From contig NZ_QETA01000005.1 of assembly GCF_003123725.1 (NCBI RefSeq), positions 62,001 through 126,000 on the forward strand: DNA of 64,000 bases, written 5' to 3'. The notes beneath the pieces were generated by a model. That model worked only from the letters and a program-made list of their open reading frames with translations. It had not been told where the DNA came from and searched no databases. The stretch comes from Corticimicrobacter populi. Its GTDB lineage: Bacteria > Pseudomonadota > Gammaproteobacteria > Burkholderiales > Burkholderiaceae_B. The position numbers were made by a program, and so were the translations under genes. Below, piece by piece: positions 36,776 through 54,234 of the stretch. Position 1 is the stretch's first letter. Every line of letters starts with the position of its first letter.

Positions 36776-37999
36776 TCAGTGCATGTGCGTGGTACTCGAG
36801 GGGCAGAGTTCACGGTCCAGCAGGGCTGTCAGTTCCGATTCCGGTGCAGGCCTGGCAATCAGGAAGCCCTGCACATAGTCGCATCCGGCATTGCGCAGGA
36901 ATTCGAGATCTTCTGCCGACTCTACGCCTTCTGCCGTGACTTTCATGCCGAGCTCCTTGCCCAGCATGATGGCGGTGATGGTGGCGGCTGCCAGCGTGCC
37001 GGTGACGGCTGCACCTGATACAAAGGCACGGTCGATCTTGAGTTCCGTGAAGGGCACGGCGGTCAGGCTGTGCATGGAGCTGTAGCCGATGCCGAAATCG
37101 TCCTGGGCCAGCCCGAAACCCTTGAGCCGCAGTCGGCCGGCTCCCATGAAAAAAAGACCCGGATCGACGGTCTGGGAGCTTTCCAGCAATTCGAAGGTGA
37201 CATCTTCTGCCGGTACGCCGCAGGCGATGACATGGGCGTGCAATTGATCGGGCAGGGTGGCATCGTCGAGCAGGTGTGTGGGGAGATTGACCGATACCGG
37301 AATGCGCCATCCCTGCGTGGCCCAGCGTCGGTAGGCCTGCAGGGCACCACCGAGCATGTGGATCAGCAGGGCATGATCCTTGCCATGTTCAGTGATGGCG
37401 GGCAGGAAGACGCCCGGCGATACCAGGCCGACGTCGGGATGACGCCAGCGAGCCAGGGCCTCGACGCCGACGATCTTGCCGGTACGCAGCGAGCACTTGG
37501 GCTGGAACCAGGGCTCGATCTGATGGGTGAGCAAGGCCGCATCAAGCATGGCTGAGGTCATGGCCGGCAACGACTCGGCGGGCAATACCGGGGCAGTTGC
37601 GGCAGGGCGATGGCTGTGCTGGTCGAGCGCCTTGCCCAGGCTTTGCGCATTGAGGGCGGTAAATGGTTTGGCGTAGCAATCGATGACCGTCAGGTTCATG
37701 TTGCGGGCCATGTGGCTGGCGCTGTCCATCATGCGAGGTGAACAGGCGCTGGTGATGGCGATCAGGATATCGGGATAGTGCTCTGCCAGTTCCTGGATGA
37801 ACTGCATGCCATCCATGTCCGGCATGTTCAGGTCAAGCAGGATCAGATCGTAGGCGCTGTGGCCGATGCGCGCGAGTGCATCGGTGCCGCTGTGTGCCGT
37901 ATCGACCTGGGCGAATCCGGCCTGTTCCAGCATGTCGCATACATGGGCACATTGCAGCGGGTGGTCTTCCAGAACAAGGATATGGTAGGGGTATCGCAT
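36776..37999 (-). CDS. receiver-EAL c-di-GMP phosphodiesterase (PvrR/RocR-like)
   Basis: 407 residues from ATG 37999, one base after the upstream kinase stop. The N-terminal receiver (1-125) has acidic residues at 11-12 and phospho-acceptor Asp56 (LILLDLNMPDMDG). The EAL domain (about 150-400) has the signature EAL at 180-182 (VEALARWRHP), SVNLP, LLES, DDFGIGYSS, ELKIDRAF, TAEGVE and QGFLIARP, so all expected metal and catalytic positions appear intact and it should degrade c-di-GMP. REC-EAL proteins such as PvrR and RocR lower c-di-GMP or antagonise kinases controlling Cup fimbriae. It is the last gene of the leftward signalling operon. Confidence 0.92.
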   Translation of the reverse strand: MRYPYHILVLEDHPLQCAHVCDMLEQAGFAQVDTAHSGTDALARIGHSAYDLILLDLNMPDMDGMQFIQELAEHYPDILIAITSACSPRMMDSASHMARNMNLTVIDCYAKPFTALNAQSLGKALDQHSHRPAATAPVLPAESLPAMTSAMLDAALLTHQIEPWFQPKCSLRTGKIVGVEALARWRHPDVGLVSPGVFLPAITEHGKDHALLIHMLGGALQAYRRWATQGWRIPVSVNLPTHLLDDATLPDQLHAHVIACGVPAEDVTFELLESSQTVDPGLFFMGAGRLRLKGFGLAQDDFGIGYSSMHSLTAVPFTELKIDRAFVSGAAVTGTLAAATITAIMLGKELGMKVTAEGVESAEDLEFLRNAGCDYVQGFLIARPAPESELTALLDRELCPSSTTHMH

Positions 38000-38000
38000 A

Positions 38001-40880
38001 TCAGGCTCTCCCGCGCACGATGGCAGCCTGGAGTGTATCGTGCAGTGTATTGATTGACAACGGACGCAGCAGCAGGTCTTCCATGCCGCAATCGCGCGCG
38101 CGCTTGCGCTCGTCGGACATGGCACTGGCGGTGACGCCATAGATCGGTGCCTTGTAGTGCTGCGAACGCAGGCGACTGGCCAGCGTGTAGCCATCCATGA
38201 TGGGCATGTTGATATCGGTCAGTACCACGTCTACCTCTTCGTGCTCAAGCTGCTGCAGCGCCGACTGGCCGTCCTTGGCCAGCAGGACGGTACAGCCGAG
38301 ATGCGCAAGCTGTTCGGACAGAATGCGCTGGTTGACCATGTTGTCGTCGGCGACCATGACGCGCAGGCCCAGGCTGGCCTCGAAAGGCCGGGTCGGGTTG
38401 AGTGATTGCTGCGGCTGGTGTTCTTGCAGCAGAAGCAGCGTACGCTTCAGATCCTGCAGATCATAGGCGTTGCAGTAGTGCATGAGTGGGCTGGTGGCCT
38501 CATCCGGGATCTGGCCGGGAGGTGACATGACCAGGCGCTGACCCTGCCAGTCCGGTGCCGGTGTAGCAGGCGGCCAGGCCGACAGCAGAAGTGCGCCCTT
38601 GGCCTGTGCTTCATCCCCGACCTGGAACGGCAAGGCATTGATGCCCCACTGATTGAGCCAGTCACACAGGTTGAGTATGGTTTCCTGGATGGCACCGCTG
38701 ACATAGACCGTACGCGGCAACAGGAACTGGCTGGCCGGCTGGGTGCCCAGTGGCAGTGAAACGCGCAGGTCAATACTGGTGCCCAGCCCCGGTGTGCTGA
38801 CCACAGACAGGGTGCCGTGCATGAGACTGGCCAGTCGCTTGCAGATGAATAGCCCCAATCCGGAGCCGGCCGGATTGTCCTCGCCCTGACTGCGGTTTTC
38901 CACCTGGTAATACGGAGAGAACAGCTTGTGCTGATGCTCGGGGGGAATGCCGATGCCGGTATCCGCTACCTGGAAACAGAGCGTCACCTGGCTGTCGTCC
39001 ATATCGAGGATGCGCAGGCGCAGTACGACATGCCCACCCAGTGTGAACTTGATGGCGTTGCTGACCAGATTGTTGAGGATCTGGCGCAGCCGCAGTTCGT
39101 CGCCAGCCACCCGCTGGGGTACCCGGCAGTCTGCCACTCCATAGAGCAGGATGCCCTTGGCACGGGCACGATCGGCGTAGCTGGCGACGACGCTGTTGAG
39201 CAGATCGACGGGCGAGAGATCCGAAATCTGCAGTTTTTCGTGACCGGCTTCGGCGCGTGCCAGATCCAGGGTTTCGCTGATGGTTCGCATCAGAGTGCCG
39301 GACGATAGCTGGATGGTCCGCAGATATTGGCGCTGGCGCTGTGTCAGTTCGGTCAGAGACAGTAACTCCAGCGTGCCCATGATGCCGAACAGGGGCGTGC
39401 GGATTTCATGGCTCATGGTGGCAATGAAATCGGTTTTGGCCTTGTTGGCGGAGTCGGCCTTGTGCTTGGCGGTCAGCAGCGAACGCTCGACTTCCTTGAG
39501 CGCAGTGATGTCATTCACGGCGCAGAGGGCCACTTCATGGCCCTGATGTTCCATGGGAACGACCTTGAGGAGAATGCTGCGTCCATCACGCAACGTGCGC
39601 TCCTGTCCTGGCTCCTGGTTTTGCAATGCCTGCAGGCGCCACTGGCTGTCCTCGGCATGCATCCATTGCCTGGCCTGCTCATTGGAGACCAGGGGAACAC
39701 CGCTGTTGCGGTCGATCAGGCACAGGCCCACCGGAGCGGCATCGACAATGGTCCGGGTCAGACGCTCACTGTCCTGCAGCGCGGCATACTGTGCCAGCGC
39801 GGGTTGCAGCAGCCTGCGACGGATCTGGTGCATGATGAGTGCCACAAGCGTACAGAGCGTGAGGACGGTAGCCAGTACGTGGTAGAGCGGTATATGACCA
39901 TGCTCGAAAATAACGTTGATAGGGACGGAGTACACCAGCCTCCAGCCGCCTTCGCCGATGGCCTTGCTCAAGACCAGATGGGAAGGCAGTCGATTGTCCC
40001 AGGCGTAATAAAAACTGTCCTGGGGGATTTCCTTGTGGCTGTACCATTCCGGATCGAGGATTTCCCCTTCGTGCAGAACGACATGCTGCGTCGGGGTCAG
40101 CAGCACATAGTTCTGCGGATGTCGGCTGTTGTCATGCCAGCGTATGGCGGTCTCGATATTGTTGACTTCCAGGCCAACCCATCCCGCATCGGGATCCGAC
40201 ATGTCCAGAGGGGTATAGAGGAACAGGCGCGAGATGTCGTCGCCGGGTGGTCGCAACCAGAACAGAGGCGCATAGCCATCGGCACGTGCGGCCGTGGCGC
40301 GCGTGGCAAGGAATTCGGCAATCCAGGTCTGTACGCCGGTAGGGATGCCGTGCCCAGAACCCGTCACATAGCGGGTTTTGCCGGTCGAGATCGACGTATG
40401 CAGGATGTTGACCTGTTGCAGGTCGAGAAGCTGGCGATCACGTGCCGTCACCAGCAGGTACCAGAACGGGGCACCATCCGACGTGGCAGTCACGGGAACG
40501 ACTTCCAACTGCGTGGCACCATTGCGCGGCTCAGAGGTGACCGGGGGCGTGGCTTTCCGGGAGGGCAGCATGGCCGCCGTGACCGAACGCAATTGGGCTT
40601 CACGGCGGTCGAAGAAAAACTGTGCGTCGTAGGCCGAGGCGTTCATGTCCCGGCGATAGGTCGACACCTCATTGTTGAAGGCCGTATAAAGATACAGGGC
40701 TCCACCCGCCAGAATACAGCCCACGAGTGCCAGTGCAAGAATATGCAGCAGCAGATGTGGGATGCGAGGCGGGGTACGCAGGTCGTTGGAGGGGGCGCTA
40801 AGATGAGCCTTCATGGCCTTCATGATAGAGGCCGGTCTCTGCGTCAGGTTTGGGAAGGTTCTGAAAAAATCGACGCTCAA
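38001..40880 (-). CDS. hybrid sensor histidine kinase 1 (no HPt domain)
   Basis: Up to 959 residues. A transmembrane helix (about 45-70), a periplasmic sensor of about 270 residues, a second helix (about 345-365), a PAS-like segment (about 385-490), HisKA with phospho-His491 (ATMSHEIRTPL), HATPase (with NLVSNAIKFT and GSGLGLFICKRL), a degenerate receiver-like stretch, and a C-terminal receiver (about 835-955) with Asp889 (VVLTDINMPIMDG). No HPt follows, so phosphate must leave through another protein's HPt. The start is uncertain: TTG 40880 overlaps the upstream regulator stop by 4 bases; ATG 40823 (MKAMKAHLS) is also good. The downstream REC-EAL gene starts 1 base after the stop. Confidence 0.92.
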   Translation of the reverse strand: MSVDFFRTFPNLTQRPASIMKAMKAHLSAPSNDLRTPPRIPHLLLHILALALVGCILAGGALYLYTAFNNEVSTYRRDMNASAYDAQFFFDRREAQLRSVTAAMLPSRKATPPVTSEPRNGATQLEVVPVTATSDGAPFWYLLVTARDRQLLDLQQVNILHTSISTGKTRYVTGSGHGIPTGVQTWIAEFLATRATAARADGYAPLFWLRPPGDDISRLFLYTPLDMSDPDAGWVGLEVNNIETAIRWHDNSRHPQNYVLLTPTQHVVLHEGEILDPEWYSHKEIPQDSFYYAWDNRLPSHLVLSKAIGEGGWRLVYSVPINVIFEHGHIPLYHVLATVLTLCTLVALIMHQIRRRLLQPALAQYAALQDSERLTRTIVDAAPVGLCLIDRNSGVPLVSNEQARQWMHAEDSQWRLQALQNQEPGQERTLRDGRSILLKVVPMEHQGHEVALCAVNDITALKEVERSLLTAKHKADSANKAKTDFIATMSHEIRTPLFGIMGTLELLSLTELTQRQRQYLRTIQLSSGTLMRTISETLDLARAEAGHEKLQISDLSPVDLLNSVVASYADRARAKGILLYGVADCRVPQRVAGDELRLRQILNNLVSNAIKFTLGGHVVLRLRILDMDDSQVTLCFQVADTGIGIPPEHQHKLFSPYYQVENRSQGEDNPAGSGLGLFICKRLASLMHGTLSVVSTPGLGTSIDLRVSLPLGTQPASQFLLPRTVYVSGAIQETILNLCDWLNQWGINALPFQVGDEAQAKGALLLSAWPPATPAPDWQGQRLVMSPPGQIPDEATSPLMHYCNAYDLQDLKRTLLLLQEHQPQQSLNPTRPFEASLGLRVMVADDNMVNQRILSEQLAHLGCTVLLAKDGQSALQQLEHEEVDVVLTDINMPIMDGYTLASRLRSQHYKAPIYGVTASAMSDERKRARDCGMEDLLLRPLSINTLHDTLQAAIVRGRA

Positions 40881-41512
40881 TCAAGCAGTCGATGGCGTGT
40901 GCAGAAGGTAATCAGCTCCTGGTCATTGGAGACATTGAGTTTGCGCATGGCCGACCGTTTCTGATTGCTGATGGTCTTGATGCTCCGGCTCAGATCGTAT
41001 GCAATGTCCTTGAGCGATTGCCCTCCGATAAAGCGGCGCAAGACTTCTATTTCCTTGCGAGAAAGGTCCGAGGCAAGTGTTGTATCCGCTGATGGTTGCT
41101 GGCGCATCAGGCTGGGATGCAGGTACTGGCGTCCCAGGCGCAGGGCTTCCAGTGCGATCTTGAGCGTATCGGGCGGATCGCTCTTGAGGACAACACCACT
41201 GGCACCGGCCTTGTAGAGAGAAGCGATCACCAGCGGGTTGCTCATCATCGTGACCACCAGGATCTGGGTCTGCGGGAAGTGATTGGCAAGATAGGCGATC
41301 AGCGCCAGTCCGTCGTTGTGCCGTGTGTCGCCGGGCATCGACAGGTCCGTAATGGCGACGTCCGGCTTTTCCTTGATGATATGTTCGATCAGTTCGGTCG
41401 GCGTGGTGACGCATGCCGTGATGTCGAAGCGGATGTCGTTGGCGAAGAAATCGCGAATCCCCGCCAGTACGAGAGGATGGTCATCGGCAAAAACCAGGCG
41501 CAGTTTCTTCAT
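40877..41512 (-). CDS. RcsB-like response regulator 2 (NarL/LuxR type)
   Basis: 211 residues. The receiver (1-125) has Asp10-Asp11 and phospho-acceptor Asp56 in TDLSMPG, continuing NDGLALIAYLANHFP, the same pattern as RcsB. A LuxR-type helix-turn-helix (about 148-205) reads LSRKEIEVLRRFIGG, then SIKTISNQKRSAMRKL, very close in wording to RcsB. It is likely a transcription factor for surface structures. It sits between the two hybrid kinases, 21 bases after kinase 2, and overlaps kinase 1. Confidence 0.92.
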   Translation of the reverse strand: MKKLRLVFADDHPLVLAGIRDFFANDIRFDITACVTTPTELIEHIIKEKPDVAITDLSMPGDTRHNDGLALIAYLANHFPQTQILVVTMMSNPLVIASLYKAGASGVVLKSDPPDTLKIALEALRLGRQYLHPSLMRQQPSADTTLASDLSRKEIEVLRRFIGGQSLKDIAYDLSRSIKTISNQKRSAMRKLNVSNDQELITFCTRHRLLD

Positions 41513-41533
41513 GGCGATCTGCCCGGGTGGAGG

Positions 41534-44500
41534 TCAGGTTGGCAAGTGTTCATCAATCACCGTTTTCAGATCAATTGCAATGCGCAGGAGTGTGGCTTCC
41601 AACTCGGGGGTCAGTGGCCCGGCACGCAACGCATCTTCTGCATTGTGAACCCGTTTGGCAAAACTTTGTTGGCGCATGCTCAACAGAGCGCCATGCATGC
41701 GGTGCAAGGCTTGCTGGATGCTCGAGGGTTTTTGGCTGCCAACCGCTTCCAGCAATGAGTTTGCATCGTCTGTCATGGATTGACGAAATAGCTCACGGTG
41801 CTTGGCCGGGATCAGGTCAAGTTCGCTGATGGCATCCGAGGTTGCGCTGTCGTGGATGGCTGGCGCGATCTGGGATACAGGCAGCGTCGTTGCGTCGGGT
41901 ACCAGACGGGCCGATACCTTGTGTGGTGCCAGCGTGTACAGGCTGTGGTACAGCGTATCAAGGTTGATGGGCTTAACGATCCAGGCATTCATGCCTGCCT
42001 GCCGGCAGTGATTTTCTTCCTCGCGCATGGCATTGGCGGTGACGCCGATGATCGGGACGTCAGTGCCCGTGTTGCGCAAGGCAGAAGTCAGTTCATAACC
42101 GTTCATGCGGGGCATATTGACGTCGGTCAGCACGATATCGTAGGAGGCTGCTGCCCAGCGCTGGAGGGCCTCGGCACCATCGCTGGTCATGGTTACCGTG
42201 CAGCCCAGCAGCTCCAGTTGATCCCTGAGGGTAGCCTGGTTGATCGGATTGTCTTCCGCTACCAGTATTTGCAGGCCCAGTTCGTGATATGCATGGCTGT
42301 TCGATTCCAGCTCCGATGTGCTGTCGGGATGCTGAAGATAACGAAGGATGCCTCGCGCAATGTCATCGGCACCGCAGCCTTCCAGGCGAGCGTCGGCATG
42401 GTCTGGTTCTGGTGCCAGGGGTGTCCCGGCCAGGATGTACTTGCCGGGCCAGTCCGATGGACGGCCAGGTTGTGAGACCAGCACATCGATCAGCAAGGTG
42501 TTGGCTGATGCCGTCGCTGTTTCAGGCATGTCGGCGGGCAGGATTGCTTCGGCCTGGGCCCCCCATTTTCGGAACCACAGACACAGGTTTCGGCTCAATT
42601 CTGCGTGTGCGCTGCGTACGCGCAGATCAAGTCCACTCAAGTCTGGCTCTGCAGGGCGTTGCGGGCAGGCGGCTGTTTCCAGAGTGATTCGCAGGGCAAA
42701 GCTGCTGCCCAGCCCCAGCTCGCTGGTCACCTGAATGTCGCCACCCATGAGGCGTGCCAGATTGTCGGAAATCGACAGCCCCAGTCCGGTACCCTGCGAG
42801 GTGTGGTTCTGCGAGGCAACTTGGTAGAACGGGGTAAAAAGCCGTGTCTGATCTTCGGCACTGATGCCAGGCCCGCTGTCCACGACCTGGAAGACCAGCT
42901 CGACGCTGCCGTCGGGCTGGTGCTGTGATCGCAAGCGTGCGACGACCTGCCCAGAGAGTGTGAACTTGATGGCATTGCTGAGGAAATTGTAGATAATCTG
43001 GCGAATCCGTGTCGGATCGCCCTGCACACAATCCGGGACCGAAGGCTCGATGCAGGCAAATATCTGCAGGCCTTTCTGGCGCGCCATGCCGGAGAATCCA
43101 TCCACGCAAGTCTGTACCAGCCGACCAGGGCAGAACGATTCCATGTTCAGGGCCATCTGGTCAGCCTCGATCTTGGTGAGATCCAGAATATCGCTGATCA
43201 ACTGCATCAGGATGGCCGAGGATTGCTGTAGGCGCCGCAGGTGCTGACGCTGGGCGGGCGTCAGTTGTGTCATCGAGAGCAGCTCCATTGTGCCCAGAAT
43301 GCCGTACAGCGGGGTACGGATTTCGTGGCTCATGGCTGCCAGAAAGCGTGACTTGGCACTGTTTGCGCTGTCGGCTTCGGACTTCGCCTTGCTGAGTGCC
43401 TTCTCGTATTGTGCGCGCACGCTGACGTCGGCAAAGGCACAGAGCAAGGCTGGTTGCCGGTGATAGCGGGTGGGCGCGTAGGCAACCTGCAGTGTCCGGT
43501 CATGGAGTTGCAGGTTGTCGCGGCTCCCCAGCGTATCAGCATGAAGCAAGTCTTTCGGTAGCAGGTTTGCGGGCAGTTGCCGTGTGCCGTCATCGGCGGT
43601 GGCGATATCCAGCCATTGCTGCGCCAATGTATTGGCAAACAGTACGCTGCCGTCGTCGCGCGACAGAATGCAGAGCGCCACGGGTGCCGTATCGAGCAAG
43701 GTCCTGCCGAAGGCTTCGCTTTCATGCAGGGCCTGGTGCGATTGCTGGATGGGCTGGACGACACGACGGTTATACCAGCGGGCATAGGCACCACCAACCA
43801 GGGTGCACAGGACAAGCAATCCCAGCGCTGTCAGGGGGAGCCATGAGTTGGCGCTAAACAGCGTGCTGTAGCGTACTTTGTAAACTCCGAGCCAACTGCC
43901 GCTGGCGTCTGTGAAGCCGAAGACGACGCCAGAAAGGGTCAGGTCTGTGCCTGTTTGGGTCTGTGGGGGGGGCGCTCCGTTGTTGCTGACCAGGATGCTG
44001 TCATTGTGCAGCATCCAGAATTCGTCATACAGCGGCGAGACAGCGATTTTGGCAAGAAGGTTGGTGCTGGCCAGGTTGAACACCGTGGCTGCGTGCAATT
44101 GTCCATTGTTGTCGGTATTGCGTACTGGCCAGACGCCGGAAGGAAACGGGGCGCTGGTATAGCCGACGATCGTGCCGGGCAGGTCGGGCAGGTGCAGCCA
44201 TCGAATTTCTGGTTCAGACAGCGACGGACTGGCTGCACTCTGAGCCGCGCTGCGGATCGTTGCAACTGTCAGCAGCAGATCTTGAGGCGAAAGCGTCTGG
44301 CGTCCGGCAATGGTTTCGTCAGCAGGGACCACGAGGCTGAGATCTGAATTGCCATCGATCAGCAGGGTCGTTGCGCCTGGAAAATAGGAGCGTGACCAGT
44401 AGGCAGCATAGAAATCCGAGAGAAAGTCGCCGATGGCATGCAGGGCTGCGCGATTGGCGGGGTGGTCTGCATTGACCGGGCAGGTCACCTTTTCCATGCA

Positions 44501-44887
44501 GAGTATTGCGTAGGGAATATCGGCAATGGAGGGACGTACCTGGTAGAGGTAGGGCTTGTCGTCGTGGATCGTAGATTGATTGGCGGGTTCTGGCAGCAGC
44601 ATCGCCGTTCGGGTCGGCAAGGTTTCGTTGCGCTGTTGCAGGGTGCGCAGGTAGCGTTCCTGTGCGTGGAGGTAGGTGGTCAGGGCAGCGAAATCGAATT
44701 CGGTTTTTTCCCGTGCCTGAGTGATGATGAGTTGCATGCCCCAGAACAACGCAATAATCAGCAGGATGGCCAGAGGCAGTCCTCCGAAGATGGCGATCTG
44801 CAGCCACCGGAACGAGCGCGATATCTTGCGAAAGGATGCGGGAGGCATGGCGGTCCTGGACCGAGGGCGAGGTTGCATCATATTCAT
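41534..44887 (-). CDS. hybrid sensor histidine kinase 2 with receiver and HPt domains
   Basis: 1117 residues from ATG 44887. Membrane helices near 33-53 and 350-375 bracket a periplasmic sensor of about 300 residues; a PAS-like segment, HisKA with phospho-His521 (AAMSHEIRTPLYG), HATPase (with FLSNAIKFT and GTGLGLSISDNL), a degenerate receiver-like region, a receiver with Asp922 (VLTDVNMPRMNG), and a C-terminal HPt with His1062 (ALHRMHGAL) follow. A full phosphorelay kinase of the RcsC/BvgS/RocS type. ATG 44887 has GAGG five bases upstream, overlapping the stop of the 69-codon gene before it; the alternative ATG 44938 lies inside that gene and has no good ribosome site. A C8 tract (43975-43982) codes Pro-Pro-Pro in the sensor. 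Confidence 0.92.
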   Translation of the reverse strand: MNMMQPRPRSRTAMPPASFRKISRSFRWLQIAIFGGLPLAILLIIALFWGMQLIITQAREKTEFDFAALTTYLHAQERYLRTLQQRNETLPTRTAMLLPEPANQSTIHDDKPYLYQVRPSIADIPYAILCMEKVTCPVNADHPANRAALHAIGDFLSDFYAAYWSRSYFPGATTLLIDGNSDLSLVVPADETIAGRQTLSPQDLLLTVATIRSAAQSAASPSLSEPEIRWLHLPDLPGTIVGYTSAPFPSGVWPVRNTDNNGQLHAATVFNLASTNLLAKIAVSPLYDEFWMLHNDSILVSNNGAPPPQTQTGTDLTLSGVVFGFTDASGSWLGVYKVRYSTLFSANSWLPLTALGLLVLCTLVGGAYARWYNRRVVQPIQQSHQALHESEAFGRTLLDTAPVALCILSRDDGSVLFANTLAQQWLDIATADDGTRQLPANLLPKDLLHADTLGSRDNLQLHDRTLQVAYAPTRYHRQPALLCAFADVSVRAQYEKALSKAKSEADSANSAKSRFLAAMSHEIRTPLYGILGTMELLSMTQLTPAQRQHLRRLQQSSAILMQLISDILDLTKIEADQMALNMESFCPGRLVQTCVDGFSGMARQKGLQIFACIEPSVPDCVQGDPTRIRQIIYNFLSNAIKFTLSGQVVARLRSQHQPDGSVELVFQVVDSGPGISAEDQTRLFTPFYQVASQNHTSQGTGLGLSISDNLARLMGGDIQVTSELGLGSSFALRITLETAACPQRPAEPDLSGLDLRVRSAHAELSRNLCLWFRKWGAQAEAILPADMPETATASANTLLIDVLVSQPGRPSDWPGKYILAGTPLAPEPDHADARLEGCGADDIARGILRYLQHPDSTSELESNSHAYHELGLQILVAEDNPINQATLRDQLELLGCTVTMTSDGAEALQRWAAASYDIVLTDVNMPRMNGYELTSALRNTGTDVPIIGVTANAMREEENHCRQAGMNAWIVKPINLDTLYHSLYTLAPHKVSARLVPDATTLPVSQIAPAIHDSATSDAISELDLIPAKHRELFRQSMTDDANSLLEAVGSQKPSSIQQALHRMHGALLSMRQQSFAKRVHNAEDALRAGPLTPELEATLLRIAIDLKTVIDEHLPT

Positions 44888-44894
44888 TAATCCC

Positions 44895-46146: not shown

Positions 46147-46470
46147 ATGAAAAAGATTGGCTCCGCACTCGTTCTGGCTGCCATGATGGGCCTGGGTACG
46201 CAAGTTGCTGCCTCCGGTCTCCCCAACAAGGTTGATCGTGGGGTCATCCGTTTCCAGGGGCAAATTGTCGAAGGTGCCACCTGTCGTCCGCAGGTCAATG
46301 GTCGCACTGCAGTACTTCAGGTCTCCGCTGTCTGTTCGGACCAGCGTGTCATGCAGCGCGTCCCTGGTCGCCAGGCTGGCGACGAGGTCATGATCGATGT
46401 GCGCGACATTCCCGCACGCGATGGGCGGCAGGATGTTCGTCGCCAGCTCGTCACCCTGACATACCGCTGA
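46147..46470 (+). CDS. short fimbrillin-like secreted protein
   Basis: 107 residues with a clear signal peptide (MKKIGSALVLAAMMGLG, ending near AAS). The mature protein starts with a GVIRFQGQIVEGATC strand, like the N-terminal strand and first Cys of type 1 pilins, has a second Cys about 20 residues on, and ends QLVTLTYR, the pilin C-terminal beta-strand pattern. It is about 60 residues shorter than a normal pilin, so most of the middle of the Ig-like fold is missing or compressed. ATG 46147 has a strong AGGAGG. It is divergent from regulator 1 and separated from the main fimbrial operon by a permease gene. Confidence 0.72.
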   Translation: MKKIGSALVLAAMMGLGTQVAASGLPNKVDRGVIRFQGQIVEGATCRPQVNGRTAVLQVSAVCSDQRVMQRVPGRQAGDEVMIDVRDIPARDGRQDVRRQLVTLTYR

Positions 46471-46531: not shown

Positions 46532-47872
46532 ATGGCGGACATCCTACATATCATTCGAAGAGAGGCCGGCTTGCCTGCCGTTCTGGGATCGGCCCAGATG
46601 GCAGGCGTGGCCTTTGGCGCAGTCATCAGCTATGGGCTGGTCTCGGGCGGGGTGCTGCCCCTGATGCTGGCCGGACCTGTTGTGGCCATGGTGGGCTATG
46701 TGGCTGCGGCCTGCTTGGTACTGTTGCTGATGTACTGTCTGGCGGATATGGCCGTAACCCATCCTGTGCCAAGCGCTTTTGGTGCCTATGCCGAAGCTTA
46801 TATTGGCCTGCGCATGGGGATTGTCGTGCGTGTCGCCTATTTCAGTGCGGTCGTTTGTATTGTCGGCACGGAAGTCGTCCTGCTGGAGCCACTGTTCGGC
46901 TTCTGGCTGGCACCCTTGCCAGGGTGGATGGTCGTTGTCCTGTTGTTGATCGGGCTGGGCGCAATCAATGGGCTGGGCGCGCTGGCCTCTGCGCGTTTCG
47001 GATTGTCGCTGGCCGTGCTGAAGGTCATCGCCCTGATAGCGCTTGTTGCATTGGCGGTCTATCAGGCACCGTTGGCCGGCGAGGCAGAAATTGGAATCGG
47101 GGATACCGTTTGGCCAGACATCTGGGCTGATGTGCCCCTGCCATCACTTTGGCAGGCATTTGTCGTGGCGGTTCTTGGGTATATAGGTATCGAAACCATG
47201 GCAGTGGCTGCGGCCGAAACCGCAGCGCCTGCTGCCGTGCTGCGTCGAAGCATGCGCAGGGCGACCTGGGGAGTGCTGATATTGGTTCTGTGCGCAGTGG
47301 CGGCCTCCGGCTGGATTCAGGCACAGCACTTTGTTCCATTCAATGTGCCTCCCTTTGTCTATCTGTTGGGCCTGACCGGTGTGCCGGCAGTCAATACGGT
47401 TTTCAATGTACTAATGCTGCTGGCAGTCGTCTCTGTGCTCAACAGCCAGATCTATGCAGGATCTCGCCAGTTGTTTGGCCTGAGCAGGGCTGGTCGGGCC
47501 CCGGCGGTGCTGGCGCGCCCCTGGTCGCGTAGCGCAAGCGGCAGCGTTGCCTGCACAGTATTGCTGCCCATACTGATATATCTTGCCTATGAAGCCTTTC
47601 CGACGCAGGTATATATTGGGGCGACGTCAATTGCCGTGACGGCCTTGCTTGCTGTCTGGATGGCGATATTTGCCTCGCATGTCGGTTTTCGTCGGCAGGC
47701 GGGTGGCCGGTCGTGGCAAGGCGTGGTCGGTGTGGTTCTGGTATTGGCTATTGCTGCATCTACGCTGCAGATTGATGTTTTTGGTGTGGCGCTGATGGTC
47801 GGCCTTCCTTTTCTGATTTTTATTTTCATGGCCGAATTTGTTTTCGGACTGTTTTTTGCCAATCCAAAATGA
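46532..47872 (+). CDS. APC-family amino-acid permease
   Basis: 446 residues with about twelve membrane helices. The N-terminal helix region has GSAQMAGVAFGAVISYG, then FGAYAEAYIG near residue 95, both typical of APC-superfamily amino-acid/polyamine transporters. Substrate not predictable. The ribosome site before ATG 46532 is weak. A 6-base GC hairpin (46498-46517) lies between the mini-fimbrillin and this gene. Its position between fimbrial genes is odd and may be incidental. Confidence 0.85.
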   Translation: MADILHIIRREAGLPAVLGSAQMAGVAFGAVISYGLVSGGVLPLMLAGPVVAMVGYVAAACLVLLLMYCLADMAVTHPVPSAFGAYAEAYIGLRMGIVVRVAYFSAVVCIVGTEVVLLEPLFGFWLAPLPGWMVVVLLLIGLGAINGLGALASARFGLSLAVLKVIALIALVALAVYQAPLAGEAEIGIGDTVWPDIWADVPLPSLWQAFVVAVLGYIGIETMAVAAAETAAPAAVLRRSMRRATWGVLILVLCAVAASGWIQAQHFVPFNVPPFVYLLGLTGVPAVNTVFNVLMLLAVVSVLNSQIYAGSRQLFGLSRAGRAPAVLARPWSRSASGSVACTVLLPILIYLAYEAFPTQVYIGATSIAVTALLAVWMAIFASHVGFRRQAGGRSWQGVVGVVLVLAIAASTLQIDVFGVALMVGLPFLIFIFMAEFVFGLFFANPK

Positions 47873-48055: not shown

Positions 48056-48463
48056 ATGAGCAAGCTGGGAATCTGGGTGGATTTTCAACAGAAAATCGTT
48101 TGCACTGAGTTGCGTCGTCAGGATCTTATCTCGTTTTCCGAGTGGGCCTACGATGCCAGCGATTGTGCGCAACGATTTTCCGAGACGTCTTATCTGGGTT
48201 ACCGCATTTGGGCAGTGCCGTGCATGAGGCTGATGCGCAAGCATCCGTCGCTGTCGCGAGCCCTGGCTGTCGTCGTCCGTTGGATGGTGGCGGACATCAA
48301 GCATGAGCGAGGTGTCAGCAGCCAGTCCCATTGGATGGGCAGGGTGGTGCGCCGGGGTATTTTCTGGCCCGCCAACCGGCTGATCGGACATGCTGCTTCC
48401 CTCGCTGTGCCCACAGGGCAGTCGAAAGGCGACAGCGATTGCGCATTCGTACTCAAAAGTTGA
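48056..48463 (+). CDS. uncharacterised 135-residue protein upstream of fimbrial operon
   Basis: Soluble, Arg- and Trp-rich protein (MSKLGIWVDFQQKIVC...; YLGYRIWAVPCMRLMRKHP; VVRWMVADIKHERG). No signal peptide, membrane helix or known domain is evident; I do not recognise the family. ATG 48056 has GAGTGA a few bases upstream. The 183 bases before it (47873-48055) are AT-rich and hold no gene, probably promoter; the first pilin gene follows after 56 bases, so this may be the first gene of the fimbrial transcript. Confidence 0.6.
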   Translation: MSKLGIWVDFQQKIVCTELRRQDLISFSEWAYDASDCAQRFSETSYLGYRIWAVPCMRLMRKHPSLSRALAVVVRWMVADIKHERGVSSQSHWMGRVVRRGIFWPANRLIGHAASLAVPTGQSKGDSDCAFVLKS

Positions 48464-48519: not shown

Positions 48520-49053
48520 ATGAAAAAGACTCTTGCCAATGTTCTGGTTCTCGCTGGCTTTGCCGCCATCGCCGGCACGGCTGCTGCCGACAGCGGCAAT
48601 ATCTCCTTCCAGGGTGAAATCACGCAATCGGCCTGCTCGATCGGTGGCGGTCAGCAAGGTGCCAACATGGTTGTGCCGATGGGCAGCATCTCGACCAACA
48701 TGTTCAATGGCGTGGGCTCCAAGGCCGGTGACGGTACCGACTTCACGATCGCTCTGCTGGGTTGCGACACCGACGTGTCGGAAAACGCCTCGATTTCGTT
48801 CCGTCCGGGTGCTGGCAGCGTGATCAACAATCGCCTGCTGAGCCTGGAAAACGGCAGTGGCGCAACTGGCGTGGCCGTGGCCCTGGTGGCTGAAGACGGT
48901 ACCGCGATCAACGTAGGCGGCACTGCGACCACCTATACCCTGGTCAAGGGCACCAACAACTTCAACTTCAAGGCCTACTACGAAGCCACCGCCGCCGACA
49001 TCAAGGCTGGTAAGGCCAATGCTCGCGCCGTTTTCGAAGTGACCTACTCCTAA
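48520..49053 (+). CDS. major fimbrial subunit (type 1 pilin)
   Basis: 177 residues: a signal peptide ending near TAAA-DS, an N-terminal donor strand with GNISFQGEITQSACSI, a disulfide pair (Cys near 39 and 81: ITQSACSI, LLGCDTD), and a C-terminal strand ending RAVFEVTYS with the penultimate Tyr needed for chaperone binding. Codon use is stronger than in neighbours (few rare-looking codons), as expected for an abundant structural protein. Followed by two hairpins that would limit transcription into the minor subunit and assembly genes. Confidence 0.93.
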   Translation: MKKTLANVLVLAGFAAIAGTAAADSGNISFQGEITQSACSIGGGQQGANMVVPMGSISTNMFNGVGSKAGDGTDFTIALLGCDTDVSENASISFRPGAGSVINNRLLSLENGSGATGVAVALVAEDGTAINVGGTATTYTLVKGTNNFNFKAYYEATAADIKAGKANARAVFEVTYS

Positions 49054-49061
49054 GCAGCGCA

Positions 49062-49083: not shown

Positions 49084-49117
49084 AGTGGAGGCCGGCCATT
49101 GGTCGGTCCTCTGACAG

Positions 49118-49139: not shown

Positions 49140-49275
49140 CAAAGAAGTGTGCCGTCATCGTTACATGGCTGGCCGCACGAGAACAATCCAGAAATCTTAA
49201 GGCTGCACCTGTTGCGAAGCATCAGGCGGGCTTGTCTGCGCCTGTATGGCGCATACCTTCATAGTCACGATACCG

Positions 49276-49815
49276 ATGAAATCCATATCGAAATTTATCT
49301 TCCGGGCGATTGCCTTTTGCCTGGCTGCGAGTGCAGCTCACGCTCAGACTGCGACCCTGAATATTTCCGGTCGTATTACCAATACACCGTGCACGATTTC
49401 TGTGGGTAACGTCAATATGGGTGATGTACCGATTAGCGAATTTGCGGCTTCCAATATTGCGCCTGAAAAATATTGGAAGAATTTCAGCGTGACGTTGGGT
49501 GGTTGTGAACTGAGTACCTTGAGTACTGCATCACTCAAGTTTAAAGGCACGACTGCTGGTGACAACATAACATTGGCATTGCAATCCGGAACGGGGGCCG
49601 CTCAAGGATTCGGCGTCATGATTGTTACTAAAGATGCGACTCATATGAGTGATCGGATGGTGAATGTCGATGGCAGCACTTCTTATGCATTTAATGTTGC
49701 CTCGGGGAAAAAGACTTTTGATTTTCAGGCTGCTTACAGAGCAACGTCGTCGAATACGACACGTAAACCAGGCACGGCCAATGCCACGGCAACGATCACT
49801 TTGACCTATTCCTGA
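49276..49815 (+). CDS. minor fimbrial subunit
   Basis: 179 residues with a signal peptide (MKSISKFIFRAIAFCL, ending AHA), pilin N-terminal strand TLNISGRITNTPCTI, second Cys in LGGCELS, and C-terminal strand ending TITLTYS. Weaker base composition and lower GC than the major pilin. A longer start at ATG 49246 adds ten residues; neither start has a good ribosome site. Probably an adaptor or secondary shaft subunit, 20 bases before the chaperone gene. Confidence 0.88.
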   Translation: MKSISKFIFRAIAFCLAASAAHAQTATLNISGRITNTPCTISVGNVNMGDVPISEFAASNIAPEKYWKNFSVTLGGCELSTLSTASLKFKGTTAGDNITLALQSGTGAAQGFGVMIVTKDATHMSDRMVNVDGSTSYAFNVASGKKTFDFQAAYRATSSNTTRKPGTANATATITLTYS

Positions 49816-49835
49816 TTGACTCGGAGGTATGACTC

Positions 49836-50591
49836 ATGGCTACGTTCCAGAATACGACTGCAGCCGCATGTGTGGCTGCTGCCTGCCTGTTGATGGCAGG
49901 AACGGCCCAGGCTGCCGTCCAGTTGTCCAGCACCCGTGCGATCATGAATGAAACAGATCGCAATGTCTCCGTATATGCCCGCAATATGTCGGCCGAGCCT
50001 TTTGTGGTGCAGGCCTGGATCGATGGCGATGACGAAGAAATGGAGACGCCGTTCTTCATTTCGCCGCCGCTGAGTCGTTTCGATGGCAATGCCGAGCGCA
50101 GCCTGAATATCACGCGCGTGGGTGAGGATGATCTGCCCAGTGATCGGGAGTCCTATTACTGGATCAACGTGCTGGAAATTCCGCAAAAAACAGATGGCGA
50201 TGAAAACAGCCTGATGCTCGCCACACGTACGCGGATCAAGCTGTTCTATCGCCCGAACGATATCCAGAAGTCCCCACGAGGCGCGGAACTGATCAAGTGG
50301 TCGATGGCGCGTGAGGGTTCGCAATGTCAGCTGGCCATCGAGAATACCTCGGCCTACAACATCAATTTTGCCAGCATCGATCTGACGGGCGAAGCCAGCG
50401 ACTTTGGGCGCGCCCTGATTGCCAAGCCGCTGGAAACGACGCGGGTGCCACTGGCGCACTGCCCTGTCGGGGGCGTGTCTGTCACGCCTCATGTGGTCAA
50501 TGACTATGGTGTTGTCGAGTCCTGGCCGGCTGTGGTACCGGTTCTGTCGGGCGCACCGGTCACGAGCGTACCTGCTGGAGCAGTGCAGTGA
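49836..50591 (+). CDS. periplasmic fimbrial chaperone (PapD-like)
   Basis: 251 residues: a signal peptide ending near AQAA, two Ig-like domains, AVQLSSTRAIMNETDRNVSV at the N-terminal strand, the alternating hydrophobic G1-region and YYWINVLEIP, a chaperone signature. It caps subunits by donor-strand complementation and hands them to the usher. Its stop overlaps the usher start by 4 bases. Confidence 0.93.
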   Translation: MATFQNTTAAACVAAACLLMAGTAQAAVQLSSTRAIMNETDRNVSVYARNMSAEPFVVQAWIDGDDEEMETPFFISPPLSRFDGNAERSLNITRVGEDDLPSDRESYYWINVLEIPQKTDGDENSLMLATRTRIKLFYRPNDIQKSPRGAELIKWSMAREGSQCQLAIENTSAYNINFASIDLTGEASDFGRALIAKPLETTRVPLAHCPVGGVSVTPHVVNDYGVVESWPAVVPVLSGAPVTSVPAGAVQ

Positions 50592-53083
50592 ATCCTTGCA
50601 ACTTGCCGGGGCGATCCCTGGCGCTGTATGTAAGTGCCGTTCTGGGCCTGTTCGCCCTGTCGAGCAGCCATGCCGAAGAGCTGGCTGCCCAATTCGATGA
50701 CAGCTTTCTGCATCAGGGAGCCGGCCAGCCGAGCGTGGATCTGTCGATCTTTGCGCTGTCCAACCGTGTGCTGCCAGGTCTGAAGTCCGTGGTGTTGCGG
50801 GTCAACGGGCAACTGTCGGGAATGCGGGAAATCGATTTCATTGCCGTTGATGGCAAGGAAAACGCGCAGCCCTGCCTGTCGACCGAGCTGCTGGAAGACG
50901 TTGGTGTCAATCTGCTGGCTTTCCCCTCCCTCGTCGGGGTGGGGGCACCGCCGTGCACGAGCTTGCTTGCAGCTATTCCGTCGGCCTCGGCCAATTATGA
51001 TTTCGACAGGAATATCTTGAACCTGTCGATACCCCAGGCCGCGCTCAATCAGCGTGCGCGGGGTGCCGTGTCGCCCGAAATGTGGGATACCGGTGAGACG
51101 GCCTTCTGGTCTTCATATCATTTTTCGCATAACCAGATGCGGATTTCGGGTGAGGGCCGCTCGACCAATCGCAGCAGCTTCCTGAGCCTGCGCAATGGTC
51201 TGAACCTGGGTGCCTGGCGTTTGCGTGCCAATGGTAATTTCTACGACAACAACGGCAGTTCGAATTTCACCTGGAATGACTTCTATGCCGAGCGCGATGT
51301 CGCTGCCTGGCGCGGTTGGCTGCGCCTGGGCGACAGCTCGACATCGGGCCAGATATTTACCTCCACCCGGTTCCGGGGCGTGCAACTGCAATCCGATGAG
51401 GGCATGCTGCCGGACAGCATGCGGGGTTACGCGCCGGTGGTTCGCGGTGTGGCGGCGAGCAATGCCAAGGTCACCGTTCGCCAGAATGGCTATGTGATTT
51501 ACACCACCTTTGTCGCGGCTGGGCCGTTCGTCATCAATGACCTCTATTCGACACCAGGTGGCGGCGACCTGGAGGTCGAGGTGGAGGAACTCAATGGTCG
51601 CACCACGCAGTTTTTCCAGCCGTTTTCGGCACTGCCGACCATGGTGCGCGAAGGTATCTGGAATTACAACTTTTCCCTGGGACAGCATCGCCAGAGCTTC
51701 GGTAATGGCAAGCCACTGATGGGCATGGCGACGTTGGCGTATGGTTTGCCCTACGGGCTGACTGCCTATGGCGGTCTGACGACGGCCGAGGGCGGTTACC
51801 ACGCAGGTGCGATTGGCATGGCGATCAACATGCGGGCTCTGGGCGCGCTGTCGCTGGATTTGACCAGTTCACGCTCGCGCCAGCTGGATGGTGGCAAGCT
51901 GGTCGGTACTGCCGCCCGCATTCAGTATGCCAAGTCGTTTGCCGAAAGCGGTACCGACCTGACGCTGGCCAGCTATCGCTACAACTCGTCGGGTTATCGC
52001 AGTCTGGATGATGCGCTGCGTGATCGTAACGACAGTACCGTGTTTCGTGGTTTGCAACGCCAGCAGGAATATCAGTTGTCGTTTGCCCAGCGCATTGGAG
52101 AGACGGGCTCGCTTTCGTTCAACTATTTTGGCCTGACCTACCGTAATGAGGAGAAGAAGGCCGAGTACATGCAGGTGGGGTATTCCAGTGCCGTTGGGCG
52201 TGTCGGTTATTCGATTAACCTCGGTCTCAACCGCAGCCCGCAGCAGGAACGCCAGTCCACGGTCATGCTCACGCTGAGCCTGCCCCTGGGGGGATCACAT
52301 ACGGCCAGCTATTCAATGAATCACACCAGCGGCCAGGGTACCAGCCATGATGCCAACCTGAGTGGTGCGCTGACCGACGACTATGCAGTGACATATGCCC
52401 TGCAGGCCGGGATCAATTCGGGCAATGACAGTGGTGGACATGGCTATGGTTCGCTGGGTTATGCCTCGCCTGTCGGAATCATGAACGTCAGCCATGCCTA
52501 TGCACGCAATAGTTCGAATACTAACTTCGACTTCAGCGGTGCGGTGGTCGTGGATGGCAAGGGGCCGCTGTTTGGCCAGTCGCTGGGTGAGACGGCCATT
52601 GTGGTCGATGCGCCGGGCGCGGCCGGAGTACAGGTCGAGTCTTTCCCAGGGGTGCGTACCGACAGCAATGGACGTGCGCTGATTCCCTATGTCAGCCCGT
52701 ATCGTGAAAACCGCATTTCGTTGGCACCTGATTACGACGATGCAACCGCGACGATCCAGCAGAACGTGCAGACTGTCGTGCCGACACGGGGGGCTATTGC
52801 CGTGGCACATTTCGAGACTGCAATTGGCCGCACGGTTATCGCGACCCTGCGGGGAAGCGACGGCAAGGTATTGCCATTTGGTGCGTCCATCTATGACGAT
52901 GATGGCGAACAGCGTGGCGTGGTCGGGCCGGTGGGGCGTTCGTGGCTGACGGGACTGCAGGGCAACAACCATTTCCTGGTGAAGTGGGGCGAACAGCAAG
53001 AGTTGCAGTGCACCTTTGAAATCGATGTGTCGGCTGCCGAGCAGGGAACCGATAAAGTACAGAAGGAGTTCACATGCGCCTGA
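50588..53083 (+). CDS. outer-membrane fimbrial usher
   Basis: 831 residues, GTG start overlapping the chaperone stop. Signal peptide (ending SSHA), N-terminal subunit-binding domain (FDDSFL, VDLSIF, VVLRVNGQLSG), 24-strand pore with a middle plug domain, and C-terminal domains (GRTVIATLRGSDGKVLPFGA; the Cys pair near the end: LQCTF and FTCA). Residues such as GFSS-like family words are replaced by MRGYAPVVRGVAASNAKVTV, the typical usher plug-adjacent motif. Catalyses subunit ordering and secretion. It overlaps the adhesin gene by 10 bases. Confidence 0.94.
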   Translation: MNPCNLPGRSLALYVSAVLGLFALSSSHAEELAAQFDDSFLHQGAGQPSVDLSIFALSNRVLPGLKSVVLRVNGQLSGMREIDFIAVDGKENAQPCLSTELLEDVGVNLLAFPSLVGVGAPPCTSLLAAIPSASANYDFDRNILNLSIPQAALNQRARGAVSPEMWDTGETAFWSSYHFSHNQMRISGEGRSTNRSSFLSLRNGLNLGAWRLRANGNFYDNNGSSNFTWNDFYAERDVAAWRGWLRLGDSSTSGQIFTSTRFRGVQLQSDEGMLPDSMRGYAPVVRGVAASNAKVTVRQNGYVIYTTFVAAGPFVINDLYSTPGGGDLEVEVEELNGRTTQFFQPFSALPTMVREGIWNYNFSLGQHRQSFGNGKPLMGMATLAYGLPYGLTAYGGLTTAEGGYHAGAIGMAINMRALGALSLDLTSSRSRQLDGGKLVGTAARIQYAKSFAESGTDLTLASYRYNSSGYRSLDDALRDRNDSTVFRGLQRQQEYQLSFAQRIGETGSLSFNYFGLTYRNEEKKAEYMQVGYSSAVGRVGYSINLGLNRSPQQERQSTVMLTLSLPLGGSHTASYSMNHTSGQGTSHDANLSGALTDDYAVTYALQAGINSGNDSGGHGYGSLGYASPVGIMNVSHAYARNSSNTNFDFSGAVVVDGKGPLFGQSLGETAIVVDAPGAAGVQVESFPGVRTDSNGRALIPYVSPYRENRISLAPDYDDATATIQQNVQTVVPTRGAIAVAHFETAIGRTVIATLRGSDGKVLPFGASIYDDDGEQRGVVGPVGRSWLTGLQGNNHFLVKWGEQQELQCTFEIDVSAAEQGTDKVQKEFTCA

Positions 53084-54234
53084 CCAGAGTGACGCGAATC
53101 AGGATGGTGCCGGCTTTGGTTATCACCTTATTGGGTATGGCCAGCCAGTCGGTAGTCATGAACGAGGCCTATGCCGGGCCGCTTGATAGCCGTGCGGTGG
53201 CTTGCCGCCTGAATAATCAGGGTGGCAAGACCAACAAGGGTAACACCTATACGGCTTATCGTAGCTCCGGCTATGTTATGCCGTTGTCTGTTGGTGTGAC
53301 GACAAGACCGCTGCCTTCCGAGGCGCAGCGTGGTCAGGTGCTGTTTTCGACAACTGAGAGCGCTTTGCCATCTCTGTATGGAGAGGCACAGGGGCAGGCC
53401 GCGCCACTTTATTACTGTCCGCCAGGCACGACCGAGAGATTCGACGGCAATGGTGCCTATATTGATAGCGCTTACAAGCTTTATTCAACTGGCGTGCCGG
53501 GCATAGGGTATCGGGTTTACTATTATCTCAACGGAGGGGAAGAGGTCCCGGCACCTGCGACCTTTAACAATTCCTATCAGACGGGTGCGCTGGTATTTCC
53601 CATGAACGGATCTGGTCAGAGCGGGTACTTGACTACGCGTATTGATTTTGTGGCGACTGGGCAGCCGATTCAACCGGGAGTGATCAGGGCCAGTCAAGTC
53701 TTTGGGCAGGTGACCGTGCCAAATGCCGGTATCAGCATTCCCTGGCAACTGTACAAGGTGTACATGAACCAGGACATCACGATTACCGTGCCCACGTGCA
53801 ATGTCACCAATACTGCAGCATTGAACATGACTTTGCCCGATGTCTCGACGACTCAACTGTTGAGTGGCAAGGCGGGTGGTATTAGCGAGACCGTGTTACA
53901 GGTTAGTTGTGCGGCTACCAGTCGTCTTGCGCCTTCACTGAAGATTACCGCCAACACGCAGGTCAGCGGTCAAGCGGCGACCTTGCGTAATCAGGATGTG
54001 AGTGCTGGTGGTGCTAAAGGGGTCGGGGTGAAGCTGTGGTTGTATGACCCACCTGCCGGCGGCCATCGCCAGGTGTCGTTTGGTACCGAAGAAAAAGGTG
54101 TTGGGTTGCCCGTTGGTAATGTGCCCACCAGTCAATGGACGTATGGTTTGGGGGCGAGTTACCAGCAGATAGATTCCACGGTACAGGCCGGGACAGTCCG
54201 GGCATCTGCGACCCTCACGTTTACCTACATGTAA
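53074..54234 (+). CDS. two-domain fimbrial tip adhesin
   Basis: 386 residues, twice pilin length. A signal peptide (about 1-34, ending AYA), a receptor-binding-type N-terminal domain (about 35-205) rich in Tyr, Gly and Ser with Cys in VACRLNN and YYCPPG, then a pilin domain (about 210-386) with VTVPTCNV, VSCAATS and C-terminal TLTFTYM. This is the layout of FimH-like tip adhesins; the ligand cannot be read from sequence. Last gene of the assembly operon; the next gene starts 80 bases on. Confidence 0.85.
   Translation: MRLTRVTRIRMVPALVITLLGMASQSVVMNEAYAGPLDSRAVACRLNNQGGKTNKGNTYTAYRSSGYVMPLSVGVTTRPLPSEAQRGQVLFSTTESALPSLYGEAQGQAAPLYYCPPGTTERFDGNGAYIDSAYKLYSTGVPGIGYRVYYYLNGGEEVPAPATFNNSYQTGALVFPMNGSGQSGYLTTRIDFVATGQPIQPGVIRASQVFGQVTVPNAGISIPWQLYKVYMNQDITITVPTCNVTNTAALNMTLPDVSTTQLLSGKAGGISETVLQVSCAATSRLAPSLKITANTQVSGQAATLRNQDVSAGGAKGVGVKLWLYDPPAGGHRQVSFGTEEKGVGLPVGNVPTSQWTYGLGASYQQIDSTVQAGTVRASATLTFTYM

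Follow-up and report, generated by a model that had tools for sequence, protein, structure and literature searches.

In Pseudomonas aeruginosa, according to the accessible sections of one study (PMC3842833), PvrS acts as a kinase and RcsC as a relay and phosphatase, which sets a precedent for kinases sharing a histidine phosphotransfer (HPt) domain; in the same sections, mutating the receiver Asp of PvrS made no difference in the conditions used, and PvrR does not need its own receiver Asp to function. PvrS and PvrR are also named for this species in the accessible part of a review (PMC9549215). For Burkholderia cenocepacia, the available part of PMC4866733 has CblS acting through its own receiver, followed by the CblT HPt, and the CblS/CblT/CblR system, in which two kinases act via one HPt, controls Burkholderia cable pili (PMC4866733, PMC3842833, available parts). 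Here we analyze a 64,000-nucleotide stretch of Corticimicrobacter populi (contig NZ_QETA01000005.1, positions 62,001 to 126,000; "the window"), in which a Pvr/Rcs-like relay, consisting of the kinases K1 and K2, the regulator RB2 and a REC-EAL protein, is found together with a second regulator, RB1, a 69-amino acid (aa) protein, s69, and a divergent run of chaperone-usher fimbrial genes.

Gene content, the separate lineages of the two regulators, the spacing of the genes and the lack of a recognizable orthologue of FK suggest that two modules have been merged in this locus. FK denotes the kinase lineage beside close relatives of RB1, an unorthodox kinase distinct from K1 and K2. We put at roughly 0.5 the probability that the locus is a natural merger of the two modules in which the HPt of K2 most likely serves RB1 too.

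Gene Content of the Locus

The genome (3.55 Mb, 17 contigs, 98.4% complete) is the sole member of its genus in the compared genome set, and its family includes Achromobacter and Bordetella. The features of the locus, with the evidence for each in parentheses, are as follows.

36776..37999, minus strand: REC-EAL, PvrR-like predicted c-di-GMP phosphodiesterase; ATG at 37999, longer open reading frame (ORF) to 38194 (Pfam REC and EAL; NCBIfam PvrR; alignment with RocR 3SY8)
38001..40880, minus strand: K1, hybrid kinase HisKA-HATPase-REC without HPt, in a PvrS-like place, with a periplasmic dCache-like sensor (Pfam, alignment, structure model)
40877..41512, minus strand: RB2, REC-GerE regulator grouping with K2-linked regulators (Pfam, NCBIfam, tree)
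41534..44938, likely start 44887, minus strand: K2, unorthodox kinase HisKA-HATPase-REC-HPt, in an RcsC-like place (Pfam, alignment)
44895..45104, minus strand: s69, 69-aa three-helix protein, GTG start (family alignment, structure model)
45234..45938, minus strand: RB1, REC-GerE regulator grouping with regulators of FK-containing loci (Pfam, tree)
45939..46146, no strand: intergenic region separating RB1 from the divergent fimbrial genes, a candidate for their control (no conserved site emerged)
46147..46470, plus strand: mini-pilin, 107-aa pilin-like ORF (signal-peptide-like start by eye; 43% to the Achromobacter sp. Root83 counterpart)
46532..47872, plus strand: amino-acid permease (Pfam AA_permease; same place in other loci)
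48056..48463, plus strand: o135, conserved 135-aa ORF (identity in relatives)
48520..49053, plus strand: pilin A (Pfam Fimbrial domain)
49246..49815, plus strand: pilin B (Pfam Fimbrial domain)
49836..50591, plus strand: PapD-type chaperone (Pfam)
50588..53083, plus strand: outer-membrane usher (Pfam)
53074..54234, plus strand: tip adhesin with a pilin (Fimbrial) domain (Pfam)
54231..54719, plus strand: acyl-carrier-protein-like protein, ACP (DSL motif by eye; PDB match)
54716..55927, plus strand: FabF-like ketoacyl synthase, KAS (Cys-His-His residues by eye; Pfam, NCBIfam)

Every gene named in an initial annotation of this DNA was recovered as an intact ORF at or near the coordinates given there, and Pfam bore out the domains assigned to them: REC and EAL, HisKA-HATPase-REC with or without HPt, two REC-GerE regulators, pilins, PapD chaperone, usher and adhesin. 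That inventory was short of the mini-pilin, the permease and o135 before the pilins and of ACP and KAS after the adhesin, as the fimbrial run extends beyond 54234 into the last two. It had also described the relay as divergent from the chaperone-usher genes, which is correct as to orientation; the relay does not directly abut the pilins, since three plus-strand ORFs lie between.

The minus-strand string reads RB1, s69, K2, RB2, K1, REC-EAL. The tight spacing reported from the 69-aa gene onward holds, depending on the choice of start codons: the gap between s69 and K2 is 7 bases if K2 begins at ATG 44887, its most likely start, and the Shine-Dalgarno-like GAGGGA of K2 overlaps the s69 stop codon; K2 and RB2 are 21 bases apart; RB2 and K1 are spaced by −4 if K1 begins at TTG 40880, and wider if at the ATG 19 codons on; and 1 base separates K1 from REC-EAL.

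A Pvr/Rcs-Like Relay With One HPt

The presence of one HPt among the two kinases, already proposed initially, was borne out by Pfam: K2 has the domain and K1 lacks it. With the window's own proteins included, an HPt was detected by Pfam in 9 of 9 K2-type and in 0 of 10 K1-type proteins. Four HPt domains were found in the whole genome, namely that of K2, one in a 682-aa frame and two in unorthodox kinases of contig C1. The K1 receiver (38001–38060) has an Arg at the position of a conserved Lys, which is present in 9 of 9 relatives; this favors a route from the K1 His to the K2 receiver and on to the K2 HPt. The periplasmic part of K1 was modeled as a dCache-like domain (mean pLDDT 81.9), and the structural matches of the model are mostly dCache domains of chemoreceptors and kinases (Z 9.6–12.6 over 182–270 residues).

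REC-EAL matched the NCBIfam PvrR model NF052596 with 432.4 bits over profile positions 3–392 of 398 and missed its cut-off of 580. PvrR is the closest NCBIfam family, and REC-EAL is a close relative of PvrR, not an equivalog. The positions that we take to be the EAL catalytic residues are kept in its alignment with RocR 3SY8, so that REC-EAL is likely an active phosphodiesterase. Neither the NCBIfam cut-off for enterobacterial RcsC (K2 453, K1 416 bits against 920) nor that for enterobacterial RcsB (RB1 152, RB2 154 bits against 235) was reached.

To follow the relay in relatives, we searched 151 genomes of the family with K2 (at most 4 candidates scored per genome), which gave matches at E ≤ 1e-60 in 13, the own genome included. 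We then inspected 12 places with K1- or K2-type genes in other genomes (L029–L037, L040, L041 and L043; 20 kb each, 12 kb for one). K1 and K2 are clustered together in 7 of these (L030–L036), and five genomes (L030–L034) have the order K1, REC-EAL, K2, RcsB-like regulator, the regulator not being found in L030. L035 and L036 have the EAL gene on the opposite strand, with a product that is without REC by Pfam. K1 is missing from L029 (K2, RB2, REC-EAL) and from L041 and L043 (REC-EAL, K2, RB); L037 has K1 plus merely partial K2 matches, and in L040 K1 stands alone, the others being absent from the stretch. Chaperone-usher genes lie within the stretch in 3 of the 12 places (L035, L036, L041), with no match in the 20 kb around K1-REC-EAL-K2 in L030–L034, and no s69 match was seen in any of the 12. 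The neighborhood search suggested by the initial annotation thus found the four-gene relay kept in relatives, the locus as a whole not being seen elsewhere. Three further genomes (G035, G112 = Bordetella trematum, and G148) matched K2 via kinases outside these 12 places; those of G035 and G112 are FK-type by neighborhood. In plasmid searches, K2 matched 22 records and REC-EAL 8. Three neighborhoods were inspected: two Providencia plasmids have a hybrid kinase near fimbrial genes with no REC-EAL annotated in the stretch, and the third is a Roc locus.

RB1 and a Second Fimbrial Module

In a tree of 24 regulator rows (bootstrap values rough; 12 of 21 inner forks open), RB1 grouped with 11 rows from FK-containing loci with support of 95/95, and RB2 fell on the side of the K2-linked rows. 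The K2-linked regulators of Root83, G074 and G136 were placed closer to the FK side (93/90, under the starred level), which hints at earlier exchanges of regulators in K2-type relays. Two motifs separate the kinases compared: the H-box, which is TPL[YF]G in the K1/K2 lineage versus TPLNA or TPMNA in the FK lineage, and the HPt motif, HR-type versus ELH-type.

An RB1 search of 268 family genomes gave matches at E ≤ 1e-38 in 49, and 78 loci were kept from a search of the named genome collection with the RB1 alignment. Close RB1 relatives adjoin FK kinases, and several times the same fimbrial operon too. In Achromobacter sp. Root83 the order is RB1, s69, a 133-aa ORF, mini-pilin, permease, o135, pilins, chaperone, pilin, usher, adhesin, ACP, KAS and FK, and K1-REC-EAL-K2-RB is present elsewhere in the same genome. 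RB1 and s69 run in the direction of the fimbriae in Root83; in the window they are divergent from them and lead the K2 string. B. trematum has FK (read as two ORFs), RB1, permease, o135, pilins, chaperone, usher, adhesin, ACP and KAS, followed by a second RB1-like regulator. By its RB1 relative, s69 and the order of its fimbrial operon, the window carries the marks of this RB1-FK module. The initial classification as a Pvr/Rcs-type system therefore stands for the protein set, with PvrR as the nearest named family, and fails where RB1 and s69 were taken as an "extra regulator" and a "small protein" added to it, as relatives of both sit in a second, distinct fimbrial module. That interpretation was half right: the Pvr/Rcs-like relay is present, and the two "extra" genes are the signature of the other module.

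Neither K1 nor K2 was the best match of a full-size kinase in any of the 78 RB1 loci, some of which are short, so that this absence is weak evidence; the best matches to K2 or RB2 there were only a 149-aa ORF at 20% (L115) and a 209-aa ORF at 26% (L104). Among the 78, 14 contain EAL proteins 27–37% identical to the REC-EAL of the window. In Bordetella genomosp. 12, A. kerstersii and Pseudomonas sp. Au-Pse12 (L081, L078, L102), a pair of FK kinases is found together with a pair of RB1-like regulators and an EAL protein, and chaperone-usher genes adjoin this set in L081. Both kinases have an HPt in Bordetella genomosp. 12 and in A. kerstersii, and the EAL protein of the former is without REC by Pfam.

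No FK orthologue was found in the C. populi genome (67 of 67 candidates scored), the best matches being K1 (35%) and K2 (34%). A third kinase, of 1274 aa, on contig C1, has a multi-PAS sensor and matches FK from the kinase core on only (33% over 612 aa), and on this comparison we do not count it as FK. With no candidate better than K1 and K2, and with the 1274-aa kinase set aside, RB1 has probably lost its own kinase; it adjoins the only HPt found in its neighborhood.

The s69 Family

The conservation of s69 as a family rules out a chance ORF. In an alignment of 20 members F27, N32 and S38 are invariant, and the structure is modeled with confidence as a bundle of three helices (mean pLDDT 86.6). 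When the 20 members were scanned against Pfam and NCBIfam, the best E-values were 0.0067 and 0.0078 (QseG, 2 members), with no family matched by more than two. A PDB structure search with the model returned one match at E 8.1 (Z 4.1 on a second look) and no structural relative, and a PDB profile search had as its best match a short stretch of protein A (E 0.007). s69 thus apparently represents an undescribed small three-helix family.

The s69 profile matched in 24 of the 78 RB1-chosen loci, 5 of which (L101, L122, L135, L152, L155) had not been used in building it, and for 22 of these 24 a relay or chaperone-usher gene lies within 1 kb, the nearest being RB1-/FK-type in 21 cases and a chaperone in 1. 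As the 78 loci were chosen for RB1, whole genomes provide the fairer contrast. Seven matches were obtained outside these loci, 4 of them (L204, L207, L209, L211) within 1.5 kb of RB1-/FK-type genes, and s69 relatives beside such genes occur in Burkholderiales and Xanthomonadales. The association of s69 with RcsB-type relays is strong, not exclusive.

Which HPt May Serve RB1

In the proposed mechanism, K1 would sense via its periplasmic dCache-like domain and phosphorylate K2, at the K2 receiver directly or through its own, and the K2 HPt would pass the phosphate to RB2; REC-EAL would lower c-di-GMP. RB1 and s69 would derive from a fimbrial module whose relatives carry their own unorthodox kinase FK, and by takeover the K2 HPt would drive RB1 too. 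RB1 is then expected to switch on the divergent run of mini-pilin, permease, o135, pilins, chaperone, usher, adhesin, ACP and KAS, and s69, coupled to K2, would probably tune RB1 or the step from HPt to regulator. The lack of an FK orthologue, together with the position of RB1 and s69 at the head of the Pvr/Rcs-like genes, makes the K2 HPt the most likely one to serve RB1, and the putative sharing of this single HPt is plausible. More tentatively, RB1, having lost its own kinase, may have been captured together with s69 as a dedicated adaptor by the HPt hub of a c-di-GMP relay of a different lineage, s69 proteins being general modulators of specificity or activity of RcsB-type phosphorelays in Burkholderiales and Xanthomonadales; we regard this wider proposal as possible, well short of even odds.

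Several observations weigh against the merger with a shared HPt. With 129 bases separating it from s69, RB1 could be transcribed independently of the relay. In its alpha-1 region RB1 resembles the sister regulators of FK loci and shows no visible sign of having adapted to K2. Chaperone-usher genes were not seen in the stretch in 9 of the 12 K1/K2-type places, which means that the main target of the relay may lie elsewhere. The dCache matches of the K1 sensor are only 5–14% identical in the rows shown, with no ligand named, and the amino-acid-binding motif of the dCache family could not be made out by eye. A palindrome near RB1, GACAA-N-TTGTC at 46052, had no counterpart at the matching place in 10 other loci scanned; a single copy, in an usher gene, was present in L038 and L085, two segments of the same genome that overlap. 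When five o135 upstream regions were aligned, only a weak shared element emerged, and no conserved operator was found in the loci scanned or in this alignment. s69 matched in at least 4 of 399 Burkholderiales genomes, two of them weakly, and in at least 2 of 268 family genomes, i.e., one besides its own, in searches of limited sensitivity that may miss some (at most 14 and 21 candidates scored per genome, respectively). Three of the seven further s69 matches are without RB1-/FK-type genes within 1.5 kb (L206, with an internal stop, beside a Clp-type ATPase; L208 beside a Mur ligase; L210 beside OmpA- and Ig-domain proteins), and the two weak matches of the order sample (L212, L213) have no such neighbor close by. 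The merger was seen in one genome, of a genus without other species in the set, and with the genome 98.4% complete FK could be in the missing part. Finally, RB1 could be served by the 1274-aa kinase, whose TPMNA H-box is FK-like and which carries an HPt.

The strongest alternative is that the two modules are neighbors only. K1 and K2 would then serve RB2 and REC-EAL with targets elsewhere, and RB1 would be an orphan fimbrial activator, controlled through its own expression, s69 or small-molecule phosphodonors. The gap before s69, the 9 of 12 relay places without nearby fimbriae and the RB1 interface residues, which are like those of sisters from FK loci, all fit this, as does PvrR functioning without its receiver Asp in the accessible part of the P. 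aeruginosa study (PMC3842833). However, the RB1 receiver retains both the Asp that accepts phosphate and the conserved Lys, as if selection for phosphorylation continued; moreover, one of the 4 HPt domains found in the genome, that of K2, is next door, and s69, whose family is mostly beside RB1/FK-type genes, is coupled to K2. We consider mere adjacency possible, if rather doubtful.

RB1 might instead receive phosphate from another HPt, that of the 1274-aa kinase or of the unorthodox kinase in a 1097-aa frame, both on contig C1. The HPt domains of both score above that of K2, and the best core stretch of the 1274-aa kinase is 45% identical to FK. Its FK-like H-box slightly raised our estimate for this alternative and lowered that for the merger from 0.52 to 0.50. 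Yet both kinases match FK from the kinase core on only, and neither is near RB1 or fimbriae, which leaves this route improbable. The protein types and the family of REC-EAL would also agree with a plain PvrSR/RcsCB system in which RcsB was duplicated and the small ORF arose by chance; this reading is rejected as very improbable because RB1 and RB2 group with different regulator sets in the tree and s69 belongs to a conserved family.

We thus prefer the merger with a shared HPt. To our knowledge, partner change of relay proteins has been studied mainly with engineered mutants. Here both unmerged modules survive in relatives, and both within one Achromobacter genome, so that natural proteins would allow the states before and after to be compared in vitro. 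The s69 family adds a small candidate auxiliary factor of RcsB-type relays, with no convincing relative in the Pfam, NCBIfam and PDB searches.

The Fimbrial Run and Its Surroundings

The mini-pilin (46147..46470) had no Pfam match. In Root83, A. kerstersii, B. trematum and G035, too, the permease precedes the pilins; it could be linked to the dCache-type sensor. o135, for which no Pfam or NCBIfam match was obtained, is 59–73% identical in 4 other genomes and 35% in Collimonas, where it follows KAS. Promoter-like sites (1 versus 1.7 in shuffles) and terminator-like sites (6 versus 4.2) were near shuffle level.

The best PDB match of the ACP-like protein is the acyl carrier protein 2n98 (E 3.4e-4). 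The order adhesin-ACP-KAS recurs in Root83, A. kerstersii, B. trematum and G035 (KAS read as two ORFs) and, more distantly, in Collimonas sp. OK242 (L129). ACP and KAS directly after the adhesin suggest that a chaperone-usher fimbria is coupled to a fatty-acid or polyketide step, for which a single limited literature search found nothing fitting.

Just beyond KAS, GC content is 48–50% over 56000–59999, and 56000–60874 holds genes of nucleotidyltransferase, oxidoreductase, SGNH acyltransferase and hexapeptide type; this is likely a block for surface polysaccharide with a different origin. The second chaperone-usher operon of the genome (G000:C12:78001-98000, L045) adjoins a large EAL-like ORF of 1102 aa.

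Comparison With Known Systems

No description of the locus was found in the open-license PMC literature, as judged by titles and abstract starts. RocS1/RocA1/RocR of P. aeruginosa combines the same protein types with Cup fimbriae, and the initial annotation had offered both RocSAR and BvgAS/BvgR as models. RocR is 29% identical to REC-EAL, RocA1 is 27–28% identical to RB1 and RB2, and RocS1 is annotated with a substrate-binding domain, whereas none was found in K1 or K2. The sensor of BvgS has venus-flytrap domains. Such domains are not present in K1 or K2 by Pfam, the K1 sensor models as dCache-like, and no domain of the substrate-binding protein (SBP) type was detected by Pfam at E up to 0.1 among 10 K1-type and 9 K2-type proteins. 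On the low identity and the lack of substrate-binding sensors by Pfam, membership in the Roc or Bvg systems was rejected, and both are poor models for the locus.

PvrSR/RcsCB with CupD in P. aeruginosa PA14, in the available part of its description, is like the window in having a kinase without HPt, a kinase with HPt, an RcsB-like regulator and REC-EAL, adjoining a chaperone-usher operon, and the Achromobacter-type order K1-REC-EAL-K2-RB is that of PA14 rcsB-rcsC-pvrR-pvrS backwards, as far as Table 1 of PMC2696094 gives it. Compared with PA14 by gene content and the PvrR model, the window differs in gene order, in RB1 and s69 from another module and in missing the PvrR cut-off. PvrSR/RcsCB is a contiguous four-gene set with one regulator, whereas the window has two regulators and s69, and its fimbrial run, unlike that of PA14, includes the permease, o135, ACP and KAS.

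CblS/CblT/CblR, absent from the initial annotation, is the best betaproteobacterial precedent for two kinases with one HPt. Likened by architecture as described in the accessible sources, it shares with the window a hybrid and an unorthodox kinase with one HPt; it differs in having no REC-EAL and a single regulator in that description. The sets of Bordetella genomosp. 12, A. kerstersii and Au-Pse12 are like the window in their two kinases, two regulators and EAL protein. RB1-FK loci, which are fimbrial in Root83, A. kerstersii and B. trematum, resemble the window in a closely related RB1; they have kinases of the FK lineage, unlike the window with K1 and K2. The Root83 locus differs further in an additional pilin between chaperone and usher and in its 133-aa ORF; it matches the window in RB1, s69, mini-pilin, permease, o135, pilins, chaperone, usher, adhesin, ACP and KAS, in that order.

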